From Melioribacteraceae bacterium (lineage in GTDB: Bacteria; Bacteroidota; Ignavibacteria; Ignavibacteriales; Melioribacteraceae), in NCBI GenBank assembly GCA_016927595.1, contig JAFGMI010000016.1:1-41668 (forward strand): a stretch of 41,668 nt of DNA, in the 5' to 3' direction. The notes beneath the pieces were generated by a model. The model saw only the letters and a program-made list of their open reading frames with translations, did no database searches and had not been told where the DNA came from. Position numbers and translations under genes: made by a program. This document shows positions 37,860 to 41,442 of this stretch, in pieces; position 1 is the stretch's first letter; every line of letters starts with the position of its first letter.

Positions 37860-39155
37860 ATGAATTCCCGAAATCATATACCGCATGTTCCTTTGGCAGA
37901 AAGAATAAGACCCAGGTCCTTAAAGGATTTTAAAGGACAGGAAAAATTAGTGGGATCCAGTGGTCCTATACGCAGTATGATTGATAACGATAAGCTCTCA
38001 TCTTTTATTCTTTGGGGTCCTCCGGGATCAGGAAAAACTACTTTGGCAAGGATTATTTCAAAACAAACTAACTCCGAATTTTATCAGCTTAATGCAGTTT
38101 CTTCTGGTGTTAAAGAGGTTAGGGAGATAATAAGACTTGCAAAGACTAACAAGGAACATTTTAAAAGAACTATTTTGTTTATTGACGAGATTCATCGTTT
38201 TAATAAATCACAACAGGACGCTCTGCTGGCTGCGGTTGAATCAGGAGATATAATTCTGATCGGTGCCACTACTGAGAATCCTTCCTTCGAGGTGATACCC
38301 CCTCTAAGATCCAGAGCGAGAGTTTACACTCTCAATGAATTAAATGAGAAGGATCTTAACGATATTTTGGAATATGCACTCACCGAGGACGAATATCTGA
38401 AGGAACTTGATCTTGAAATTGAAGATAGAAATTTTCTTTTTTACTTGAGTGGTGGTGATGCACGCTCGATGCTTAATATTTTGGAAGATGTGATTTCACA
38501 ATTAAATTCTGGCGGACGAATATTTATAAGCAATGAAATTATTGAAAAAGTTATTCAGAAAAAAAATATTCTGTACGATAAATCAGGGGAAGAGCATTAT
38601 AATATTATTTCGGCGTTTATAAAAAGTATCCGAGGAAGTGACCCCGATGCTGCGCTTTACTGGCTTGCAAGAATGCTGGAAGGAGGCGAGGACTCTCTTT
38701 TTATTGCAAGAAGGCTAATTATTCTTGCCTCGGAAGATATTGGAAATGCTTCTCCCAATGCTCTCGTACTGGCAGAAGCATGTTTTAGTGCTGTTGATAA
38801 GATCGGTATGCCGGAATCTCGAATTATACTTGCTCAATGTGTCACATATCTTGCGTCTTCACCCAAGAGTAATTCATCTTATACAGCGATTGAAAAAGCA
38901 GTCTCGGATGTCCGCCAAAGTAAACTTTATGCAGTCCCTGTTCATTTGCGAAACGCTCCAACAAGCTTTATGAAAAATTTGGGATATGGATCCGATTATA
39001 AATATCCTCACGATCACCCTGGGAATTTTGTCCCGGAAAATTACTTGCCTGAAGAAATGAAAAATACCCAGTATTATTTCCCGTCGGAAAATGGTCAGGA
39101 GAAAAATTTAAAAGAGAGATTGAAAAATTTTTGGAACGGATTGAAAAAATACTAA
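37860..39155 (+). CDS. rarA: Replication-associated recombination protein A (AAA+ ATPase)
   Basis: RarA/MgsA is a clamp-loader-like ATPase acting at stalled replication forks. The 431-residue protein has [19 protein letters not shown], Walker [10 protein letters not shown], Walker [19 protein letters not shown], the sensor [22 protein letters not shown] and the C-terminal [13 protein letters not shown] and [14 protein letters not shown] blocks. Its stop codon overlaps that of dprA on the other strand. Confidence 0.95.
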
Positions 39156-40273
39156 TTGAGTCTGAAACTCTTGCCGGGAAGTTGGGTTACTAGTCCCTGT
39201 AACTCTAGATTTAATAAATGTACAAGGCAGTCGGATGGAGATAAATTTATTTCATCGGCAATTACATCGATGTGTTTTATTGCGTTTCCAATACAGCTCA
39301 TAATGGCTTGTTCAAATAAATTCAGGGAAGCGTATTTCTTGGAATCAGATTGAGATCTTCCTAAATCAATATCTAAATTCAACTCAGTCAGTACATCATT
39401 CACTGAGACAACTAATTTTGCTTCACCGTTCTGAATCAGCATATTAGTCCCTTCAGACTGAGGGATACCCACATTCCCCGGAACAGCAAATACTTCCCTG
39501 TTTTGATCAAGTGCATAACGGGCTGTTTGCAATGCACCGCCTTTGATTCCGGTTTCAATTACAATTGTCCCGACACTCAATCCTGCTATTATCCGGTTTC
39601 GTTTGGGAAAATTTTGCGCATCGGGTTTAGTCCCGGGTTCGTACTCAGTTATTACTAACCCGTTCAAAACAATTTTTTCGAAAAGTTTTTTGTTTTCCGG
39701 CGGATATATTATGTCTAATCCGGAACCTATTACTGCTATTGTTTTTCCACCGACAGCTATGCATGAGTTATGACATATGCTGTCTATTCCACGAGCCATC
39801 CCGCTAACGATTTGTATCCCGCATTTAGATAGTTCTTCCGTGAAATAGCGAGCCTGCTTTTTGCCGTATTCGGTTGGATTGCGTGTGCCAACAATTGAGA
39901 TGTTAACATTGTCGAGTAATTCATAATTCCCACTTGAGTACAATAATAGAGGCGGAGAGTATATCCGCTTAAGCAAAGGGGGGTAATCCTGGTCGAAAAA
40001 AGTTGTGAGCTTAGTATTTTCTTTTAGCAATCTTTCACATTCAATCTCAGCTTTATTCTCGTATTGACCCAGGTTTCGTAATGAAGTGAAAATTAATTCT
40101 GCCAGAGTATCACTTATTGATAGAACATTTCTTAGTGTTTTCTGATCGGAATTAAAAATTTCATCAATAGAACCCAGTTTCGAAACCATATTTAATATTC
40201 TTGACGGTCCAACCCTTTCAACTGATAGGAGTAATTTGATCTTTGCGATAAGATTGATATTAAATGCAGACAA
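39152..40273 (-). CDS. dprA: DNA-processing protein DprA
   Basis: DprA loads RecA onto incoming single-stranded DNA in natural transformation. The 373-residue protein has an N-terminal helix-hairpin-helix region (VERVGPSRILNMVSKLGSI), the Rossmann core VSGMARGIDSICHNSCI and AVIGSGLDIIYPPENKKLF, EYEPGTKPDAQNFPKRNRII, and a C-terminal winged-helix domain (residues ~310-373). The start is TTG at 40273; no better start exists nearby. It lies 20 bases after an EutN/CcmL gene on the same strand. Confidence 0.94.
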   Translation of the reverse strand: MSAFNINLIAKIKLLLSVERVGPSRILNMVSKLGSIDEIFNSDQKTLRNVLSISDTLAELIFTSLRNLGQYENKAEIECERLLKENTKLTTFFDQDYPPLLKRIYSPPLLLYSSGNYELLDNVNISIVGTRNPTEYGKKQARYFTEELSKCGIQIVSGMARGIDSICHNSCIAVGGKTIAVIGSGLDIIYPPENKKLFEKIVLNGLVITEYEPGTKPDAQNFPKRNRIIAGLSVGTIVIETGIKGGALQTARYALDQNREVFAVPGNVGIPQSEGTNMLIQNGEAKLVVSVNDVLTELNLDIDLGRSQSDSKKYASLNLFEQAIMSCIGNAIKHIDVIADEINLSPSDCLVHLLNLELQGLVTQLPGKSFRLN

Positions 40274-40292: not shown

Positions 40293-40565
40293 TTATTTAA
40301 TGTCGATATTGTCAACATTTGCTACAATAATAGTATTAACAGGCGCGTTTTTATGTCCTAAGATTTGCTGAACTGCATCGCCTTCACGTGTTACAAGAAC
40401 CGTGTCGCCTATTCCCGAATCGAGGAAATCGAGAGAAATGTAATCCGTTTCACCGATGTAATTACCCTCGAAATCAATTTCATGAACCAGCAAAAGTTTA
40501 TAAGCTTTAAGGTTCTTGTTTTTAACAGTGGAGACGATGTTCCCTTTTACCTTGGCTATAAACAC
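40293..40565 (-). CDS. EutN/CcmL family microcompartment vertex protein (BMC-P)
   Basis: A 90-residue protein of the pentameric shell family that caps the vertices of carboxysomes and metabolosomes. Recognisable features are the opening FIAKVKGNIVSTVKNKNLKA, KLLLVHEIDFEGNYIGE, the GIGDTVLVTREGDAVQ turn, and the C-terminal strand IIVANVDNID. It starts with GTG. No BMC-H shell protein lies nearby; it sits between a small membrane protein and dprA, so either the shell genes are elsewhere or the protein has a different, stand-alone use. The ALDH at 25896 is the only plausible cargo seen. Confidence 0.9.
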   Translation of the reverse strand: MFIAKVKGNIVSTVKNKNLKAYKLLLVHEIDFEGNYIGETDYISLDFLDSGIGDTVLVTREGDAVQQILGHKNAPVNTIIVANVDNIDIK

Positions 40566-40817: not shown

Positions 40818-40831
40818 CTAATAACCTCACA

Positions 40832-40867
40832 AAATAAAAAGCCCAGTGTTGGGGGGAGACACTGGGC
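40832..40867 (-). terminator. Rho-independent terminator of the small hypothetical gene (minus strand)
   Basis: A perfect nine-pair stem, GCCCAGTGT (40841-40849) with ACACTGGGC (40859-40867), is followed on the minus strand by TTTTTATTTT (40840-40831). The loop on the minus strand reads CTCCCCCCA, very C-rich. It ends the transcript of the gene at 40952-41203 about 85 bases after its stop. Confidence 0.88.
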
Positions 40868-40879
40868 AGGTTCACAAAC

Positions 40880-40902
40880 TCAAAGATCCATATGATCTTT
40901 GA
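40880..40902 (-). other. Second 3'-UTR hairpin
   Basis: TCAAAGATC (40880-40888) and GATCTTTGA (40894-40902) form a perfect nine-pair inverted repeat with a five-base loop, 13 bases before the terminator stem in the minus-strand transcript. No T-run follows, so it is a second structured element of the 3' UTR rather than another terminator. Confidence 0.7.
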
Positions 40903-40951
40903 AAGAGTGGTACTTAAATATAAGGGTTGAGAAAAAGTTTGTCAAGAATAT

Positions 40952-41203
40952 TTATTTATGTATATGATAAACAATTTTTCTAATTGTATCGAACTGCAGA
41001 TACGGATATTCTTTTCTAAGCATTTCAATTGCATCACTGGCACTTACTTTTGCAGTTCTCATATTCTTAAACTTCTTTCGGATGGTATGGTCTCTAACCG
41101 ACTTTTCATTTATTAACCCCCTTTCGCTAAGTAGCTCATAAATTTCATCCGAAATCAGATCAGATAAAGGATTTCTATTTATTTGTTGATCTATGTTTTT
41201 CAT
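40952..41203 (-). CDS. Small helical protein of unknown function
   Basis: I do not recognise the family. The 83-residue product is charged and mostly helical (SDEIYELLSERGLINEKSV, KVSASDAIEMLRKEYPYLQF, TIRKIVYHIHK) and has no signal peptide or membrane segment; a DNA- or RNA-binding role is possible but only a guess. I chose the ATG at 41203, preceded by the strong site AGGGGGAG (41215-41208), over an upstream ATG at 41239. It is the minus-strand gene closest to the 16S rRNA, and it ends in a two-hairpin 3' UTR. Confidence 0.7.
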   Translation of the reverse strand: MKNIDQQINRNPLSDLISDEIYELLSERGLINEKSVRDHTIRKKFKNMRTAKVSASDAIEMLRKEYPYLQFDTIRKIVYHIHK

Positions 41204-41442
41204 TGAACTCCCCCTATTGAGTTTTTGATTGTTAAACATTTTTTAAAGAATCTTGTTCCCTCACAAGTTCTAAAAAGTAGAACCACTATCTTAACGAAAT
41301 CGTTCCCTCATAAAACAAACAAATTAGATAATTATTTTTTAAAAAAAATTTGTGTTTTAGATGAAAAACAGCTAACTTTAAGGCTGTTATTATTTAAGAT
41401 AAAGTTCCTTTACAATTTGATTTTAGTTGGTTCTGAAAGAAT

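Follow-up and report, generated by a model that had tools for sequence, protein, structure and literature searches.

Two hairpins near the end of the window, i.e. the whole analysed stretch of 41,668 nucleotides of the Melioribacteraceae contig JAFGMI010000016.1, were found to belong to a conserved and covarying RNA of the class Ignavibacteria, the reality of which is close to certain. This RNA probably regulates other messages rather than acting as a tail on its own gene, since it has its own promoter, ends just before a gene for a small membrane protein and has loops that would be suited to blocking ribosome-binding sites. In the reading preferred here, which is given a probability of about one half, it would be a leader-derived anti-Shine-Dalgarno small RNA, probably repressing the family of a small neighbouring gene (family A3) and other mRNAs with G-rich Shine-Dalgarno (SD) sites. 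The features on which this is based are an RNA of about 80-90 nt, a sigma70-like promoter, a covarying 5' hairpin and a C-loop terminator before the gene of a DUF3098-like membrane protein (Table 1).

Table 1. Features of the locus in the window
Feature	Position	Strand	Basis or remark
Small-protein gene (83 aa, family A3)	40952..41203	-	ATG at 41203, stop ending at 40952
SD site AGGGGGAG, loop-complementary	41208..41215	-	Read from sequence; pairing computed
-35 box TTGACA of the conserved RNA	40940..40945	-	Promoter scan
-10 box TATATT of the conserved RNA, 17 nt spacer from -35	40917..40922	-	Promoter scan
Conserved RNA, about 80 nt	40831..40911	-	Covariance models R1/R2; start inferred from -10 box, end from T-run
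Hairpin 1, covarying stem	40879..40903	-	Folding and alignment
Terminator hairpin GCCCAGTGT..ACACTGGGC	40841..40867	-	Sequence, folding, covariation
Loop CTCCCCCC, proposed anti-SD seed	40851..40858	-	Sequence and alignment
T-run TTTTTATTTT	40831..40840	-	Sequence
Two-TM DUF3098 (PF11297)-like gene, 81 aa	40572..40817	-	Start codon 13 nt past T-run

The locus in the window and the conservation of its RNA

A sequence-only reading had placed the start of the small gene behind AGGGGGAG and had noted that the terminator loop CTCCCCCC can pair with this SD site over seven bases. Coordinates and letters proved correct on the minus strand, and the complementarity was confirmed. The terminator stem consists of nine perfect pairs between GCCCAGTGT (40867-40859) and ACACTGGGC (40849-40841); its loop runs from C40858 to A40850 and contains CTCCCCCC, and the T-run TTTTTATTTT comes next. 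Folding of the window RNA reproduced the loop on top of its perfect stem, giving exactly the terminator hairpin and a second hairpin (-30.6 kcal/mol, z = -5.5). The locus adjoins a 16S gene at the contig end. The neighbours that come next code for an EutN/CcmL-type protein (40293-40565) and DprA (39152-40273), beyond the gene of the DUF3098-like protein; judged by eye, this order is apparently repeated in loci L072 and L020, and an EutN-like gene appears again in L066.

A promoter-like TTGACA-17-TATATT (40945-40917) is situated between the small gene and the hairpins; neither it nor the start codon 13 nt past the T-run had been noted in the sequence-only reading. Directly upstream of the RNA, 69 of 80 rows match at least 10 of the 12 letters of TTGACA-(16-19)-TATATT, whereas a control scan placed 326-400 nt upstream reached this score in 7 of 82 windows, and it is therefore inferred from the sequence that the hairpins form a transcription unit of their own and are not just a 3' UTR. 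The 80 promoter rows, like the 85 rows used for the downstream gene, include two antisense rows (L025, L015) of A4. Weak scores were obtained for L180 (8/12), L181 (7/12) and the outermost copy of L066 (7/12), which is cut by the locus end. As the -10 region is part of model R1, sequences with a -10 box are favoured among its matches, while the -35 box lies outside the model for most rows.

A DNA search with the 133-nt intergenic stretch gave matches in 38 of 97 related genomes (E <= 1e-3), with the terminator best kept. All 30 loci returned by this search, which made no demand on the C-run, have the terminator stem with a C-run in its loop, so that the conservation check proposed with the first reading was borne out on this point. 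Among stretches matching the exact pattern, those from named genomes suggest the class Ignavibacteria (Melioribacteraceae, Ignavibacteriaceae and others), and by our own count 37 of 61 are the conserved RNA. The remaining 24 (10 from Pseudomonas, 9 from Arthrobacter/Paenarthrobacter and 5 others) are apparently chance hairpins; a single match on a viral contig (L095) is of the same kind. With model R1 the RNA was found in 119 of 391 genomes of the class, representing 75 of 190 genera and nine families, with up to seven copies per genome and a weak match only for family f22; within the Melioribacteraceae 40 of 79 genomes were positive at E <= 0.05. Loci with identical sequence just upstream of the hairpin, or with the same model match, were counted once.

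The terminator loop carries five to seven C in nearly all rows, and five C columns are invariant in alignment A1 (46 loci, part of them chosen for having the C-run). Selection for the C-run has to be taken into account here: the exact-pattern search required C5, a later filter kept only CCCC loops, and the models lean towards C-runs. Of 35 rows coming from a model or protein search, 32 have C5 and one C4, and two (L181 and L182, with the altered terminator loop UCGCCCGA) have neither. The loop of hairpin 1 is C-rich only in deeper relatives, where it is mostly UUCUCCCCUGA-like, and most of these also have an outer stem around hairpin 1. For the 43 two-loop rows (A5), 91.5% of the cells of the three-helix structure can pair (69.7% in the outer stem and 98% in the other two helices), both partners have changed in 19 of 22 pairs, and covariation is scored at 0.528 compared to 0.233 (sd 0.013) for shuffled and at most 0.135 for slid alignments. 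In L288, a stem change is compensated with the C-run kept. The alternative that this is an ordinary terminator with a C-rich loop arisen by chance has the intrinsic-terminator form on its side, but loop, stem and promoter are conserved across the class; this refutes the plain terminator reading and leaves it next to no probability.

No match at the Rfam gathering threshold was obtained for the conserved RNA in the window, in 13 loci or in 17 further loci. A search of the phylum returned 48 of 395 genomes as matches outside the class, with a best E-value of only 5.2e-5 against 1.2e-20 inside, and occurrence outside the class is not claimed. In searches of mainly openly accessible literature on Ignavibacteria small RNAs, Bacteroidetes small RNA/anti-Shine-Dalgarno, the Melioribacter transcriptome and DUF3098, titles and openings of abstracts did not name the RNA, nor, for Ignavibacteria small RNAs, did they deal with any regulatory RNA of the class. 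The C-looped RNA seems to be uncatalogued.

The DUF3098-like gene downstream and the stand-alone copies

A DUF3098-like gene is situated downstream of the RNA in 73 of 83 rows (69 identified by script and four by eye), the 83 rows being the 85 of A4 minus the two antisense artefacts, with 78 distinct sequences. Two of the 73 lie farther off, L049 at 92 nt and L066 at 185 nt with another copy between. Between the T-run and the ATG the spacer has a median of 18.5 nt and stays within 30 nt in 55 of 58 distinct cases. The cut-off of Pfam PF11297 was passed by two of three related DUF3098-like proteins tested; the protein of the window scores 15.7 bits against a cut-off of 25 and is 28-65% identical to 22 counterparts. 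Because the spacer leaves hardly any room for another promoter, the RNA is, as far as can be read from sequence, very probably the terminated leader of this gene. The order of promoter, leader, intrinsic terminator and gene is that of terminated-leader sRNAs. Deep relatives L165 and L168 show an envelope context, in which the RNA follows LolC/E permease-like and LolD ATPase-like genes (named by eye).

It is possible, with a probability well below that of the preferred reading, that the RNA is a purely cis-acting leader, i.e. a transcription attenuator of the DUF3098 gene in which the loops would sense a ligand, protein or RNA controlling read-through, with no action in trans. The close and frequent association with the gene fits such a role, and so does the fate of the locus where the RNA was lost. 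Among 30 Melioribacteraceae genomes lacking the RNA, the DUF3098-like gene was found in 18, and 12 of 17 inspected RNA-less loci keep a promoter match of at least 10/12 within 190 nt (control genes: 29/297, 38/325 and 82/558). In G051 and G039 an unrelated terminator takes the RNA's place.

Ten rows, however, have no DUF3098-like gene directly after the RNA, tandem copies among them, which supports action in trans: L177, L179, L180, L181 and L182 (all from one genome), L184 twice, L174, L085 and the outermost copy of L066. Nine of these copies stand alone, while the tenth is the outermost of three tandem copies. They retain the hairpins, the terminator and mostly the promoter, which argues against a role in cis only. 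For L177 and L179-L182, no same-strand frame of at least 60 aa starting within 300 nt downstream was found. Inspection of A5 by eye, together with minimum-energy and consensus folds, revealed no alternative pairing of the antiterminator type, and the C-loop is associated with the SD of another gene (A3, see below). In L066 (950-1367) the three tandem copies stand ahead of one DUF3098-like gene. In L184 (1521-1839) a pair of stand-alone copies is arranged in tandem, and 179 nt separate the second of them from a following gene that, judged by eye, resembles GTP-type PEP carboxykinase.

The small protein family A3 as a candidate target

For the small protein of the window no Pfam match above cut-off and no NCBIfam match was obtained. 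A four-helix fold was predicted for it (mean pLDDT 87), and the fold search gave no confident PDB match and no recognisable RNA-binding fold. The family, with the sequence motif NPLSDLIS..YPYLQFDTIRKIVY, was found in 142 of 294 genomes of the class and in 64 of 79 Melioribacteraceae genomes, often in several copies. The gene is located directly upstream of the RNA in at least 30 of the 38 Melioribacteraceae genomes with the RNA (E <= 1e-3). Ignavibacteriaceae-type loci (L063, L065, L088, L093, L085, L040, L053, L034, L032) have another conserved element, CCAGAGTAGCAAAGGTACGCCGATTTAGGG..CTCTGGTCGGTTTTTT, upstream of the small gene; it resembles a structured terminator or attenuator, and at the gathering threshold Rfam gave no match for it in the scanned loci, L032 not being among them.

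A GGGGG SD was present in any A3 copy in 19 of 37 RNA-positive genomes (E <= 1e-3) compared to 2 of 23 negative ones (p = 0.0008), and per genus in 15 of 25 compared to 2 of 12 (p = 0.017); as the genomes are related, these p-values are optimistic. Counted per copy, GGGGG occurs in 14 of 30 RNA-adjacent copies, in 11 of 36 that lie elsewhere in RNA-positive genomes and in 3 of 26 from the remaining genomes, and GGAGG in 1 of 30 RNA-adjacent copies versus 14 of 26 copies in RNA-negative genomes. All three A3 copies in the genome of the window carry GGGGG. The two genomes with GGGGG that scored as RNA-negative (G002, G004) have no detectable DUF3098-like gene in the assembly, and drafts often break at this 16S-adjacent locus. 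Among the 11 genomes with a DUF3098 locus assembled without the RNA, none has GGGGG (p = 0.0017), a figure that leaves out nine genomes without an assembled DUF3098 gene (2/9 with GGGGG), a restriction made after the exceptions had been seen. The SD counts omit four unparsed copies (L337, L341, L350, L351), one without a start codon (G357) and a few further copies from the list, including G417, G056 and the weak matches; the A3 gene of G007 is adjacent to the RNA and was classed as 'other copy' owing to a gap of more than 190 nt.

Against this, no GGGGG was found in any examined A3 copy of 18 of the 37 RNA-positive genomes, and the two-loop relatives inspected had none, their SDs being of the GGAAGG type. 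In loop:SD energy, adjacent copies had no advantage over copies from RNA-negative genomes (p = 0.33), strong SDs being present in all groups. The covariation of loop and SD proposed as a check was not found at the species level, own pairs being no better than swapped ones (0.29). In favour of the association, G035 and G048 keep promoter and stem and have lost the C-loop, and the small gene there has GGAGG as its SD. Taken together, the neighbouring A3 gene is a serious but unproven candidate target of the RNA, at somewhat less than even odds.

How unusual the pairing is was also assessed within the genome of the window. The duplex of loop and SD ranked 4th among 565 sampled genes in the RNA-RNA interaction check. 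Of 2000 shuffled loops, 2.8% did as well, so that the pairing is unusual but, taken as a single case, exceeds chance only moderately; C-rich loops pair well even when shuffled. The 3.85 Mb genome has 20 distinct sites (21 rows) with the pattern GGGGGAG-N(2-10)-ATG, compared to 7 with the reversed control; at eight of the 20 an open frame of at least 45 aa begins, one of these being apparently internal to a longer gene. The looser GGGGGN(4-9)ATG is only mildly above control genome-wide (169 vs 109). In the SD region GGGGG is rare in general: it was found for 9 of the 565 sampled genes, two of the nine being the small gene and a paralog (A3 copies), and for 0/244, 6/299 and 3/332 genes in three other genomes.

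The best duplexes between loop and ribosome site among the sampled genes involve several secreted-protein genes and one gene that, judged by eye, is acetyltransferase-like. Six genes with signal-peptide-like starts carry GGGGG or GGGGGG ribosome sites (L099:12718, L104:410, L106:169, L108:12037, L110:1458 and L195:2566, G000 sample). G-rich SDs were enriched among signal-peptide genes of the window's genome (6/105 vs 3/460, p = 0.0019). The idea of a secreted-protein regulon was dropped, as a similar trend was seen in G010, which lacks the RNA (3/49 vs 3/250, p = 0.058), and the enrichment was absent in G072 and G045. A regulon reaching beyond the small gene would be plausible.

Two other roles can be considered for the neighbourhood of RNA and small gene. 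In the first, the loop would belong to the 3' UTR of the small gene and pair in cis with the SD of that mRNA, as in icaR, which the sequence-only reading had put forward. The seven-base complementarity agrees with this, as does the gene position directly upstream, since read-through would include the hairpins. Self-regulation is nevertheless rejected as the main function because of the separate conserved promoter and the distribution of the RNA: it is present in families f5, f7, f14 and f19, where no sampled genome had the gene, and as stand-alone copies. GGGGG SDs in A3 copies away from the RNA also argue against it. From the sequences, the hairpins are not simply the 3' UTR of this gene, and such a role is very improbable. 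That reading had alternatively proposed a small RNA with a C-rich seed for G-rich ribosome sites, released from the 3' UTR; this alternative is supported by the kept C-run and the covarying stems.

In the second, the C-rich loops would bind a protein, for instance the neighbouring small helical protein, by analogy to CcaF1, which binds RNA and acts on CcsR RNAs (PMC10253847). This is improbable, if slightly less so than the icaR-like role. It is favoured by the CcaF1 precedent and by the finding that, in Melioribacteraceae, the RNA (E <= 0.05) occurs in none of 15 genomes without an A3 protein (E <= 1e-6) and in 40 of 64 with one (p = 4.7e-6). Elsewhere in the class the two occur apart, A3 without an R1 match in families f4, f6, f8, f10, f12 and f15 (with one weak R2 match in f15) and the RNA without A3 in the four families named above, none of whose genomes is among the 142 with A3; the lack of a recognised RNA-binding fold in A3 likewise speaks against it. 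Since the RNA of deep relatives still stands next to the DUF3098-like gene but not to A3, the association of the RNA with A3 looks younger than that with DUF3098.

Related systems and proposed mode of action

Exposed C-rich loops contact the targets of UCCC-motif sRNAs of Firmicutes and of RepG in Helicobacter. A loop of this kind is also common to the Ignavibacteria RNA and PmaR of Agrobacterium, which differs in mostly activating its targets and in having most predicted sites away from the ribosome site (PMC6234868). The 3'-UTR motif UCCCCUG of S. aureus icaR is described as pairing with the SD (PMC3868564). In the window, too, a C-rich stretch can pair over seven bases with the SD of the gene preceding it, and the seven letters of the icaR motif are present in hairpin 1 of 38 of the 43 two-loop rows, presumably through convergence on the SD. 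The Ignavibacteria RNA differs from what is described for icaR in having its own promoter and gene-less copies, and is not the tail of a target mRNA.

The cuckoo/alpha-r14 sRNAs of Alphaproteobacteria (RF02344; NfeR1, CcsR) are portrayed with three hairpins, CCUCCUCCC anti-SD motifs that stay unpaired while the stems vary, and a sigma70-type promoter (PMC10746234). Hairpins, unpaired C-rich motifs with a presumed anti-SD action and promoter type are shared with the Ignavibacteria RNA. The host phylum differs, the motif here is CUCCCC/CCCCCC and not CCUCCUCCC, which was found in the loops of 0 of 43 rows of A5, and the Ignavibacteria RNA is the leader of a DUF3098-like gene. The RF02344 model gave 30.5 bits for L168 (E 1.9e-4) and 15.8 for the window, with a gathering cut-off of 58.8, which none of the remaining scanned loci reached either. 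In the CIN1 locus, copies of CcsR stand in a row beside the gene of a small DUF1127 protein (PMC10253847). This recalls the A3 neighbour; A3 is not DUF1127, a search with the window's small protein giving no DUF1127 match at E up to 1.

Leader and terminator are laid out as in Rli51 of Listeria, a 5' leader whose intrinsic terminator releases a trans-acting short RNA (PMC11394854), and UpsM of Rhodobacter, where a terminated 5' leader releases a short RNA with a proposed action in trans (PMC5089854). Judged by those descriptions the RNAs are apparently unrelated, the one in Ignavibacteria being class-wide, with C-rich anti-SD loops and no antiterminator fold recognised.

According to the preferred reading of a leader-derived anti-SD small RNA, transcription from the RNA's promoter would usually end at the terminator and release a short RNA, while read-through would yield the DUF3098 mRNA. 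The exposed C-rich loop or loops of the released RNA would serve as an anti-SD seed and block translation of mRNAs with G-rich SDs. In Melioribacteraceae one target set would be the neighbouring small gene and its paralogs, with an SD that is often GGGGG instead of GGAGG. It is tentatively suggested that, throughout the class, this leader RNA doubles as an anti-SD regulator of Ignavibacteria: a C-looped RNA would be set free whenever a membrane-protein gene is transcribed with attenuation, and genes would join or leave the regulon by one-base SD changes (GGAGG to GGGGG) that keep pairing with the ribosome via a G-U wobble and gain pairing with the loop.

These results add a deeply conserved, covarying RNA family to the class Ignavibacteria. 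In the proposed mode of action two known designs, a terminated leader turned sRNA and a cuckoo-type anti-SD loop, would be combined in one molecule. The natural variants of the locus, with the C-loop lost, the terminator replaced, the RNA lost or copies orphaned, allow a direct test of the coevolution of an sRNA with ribosome sites.
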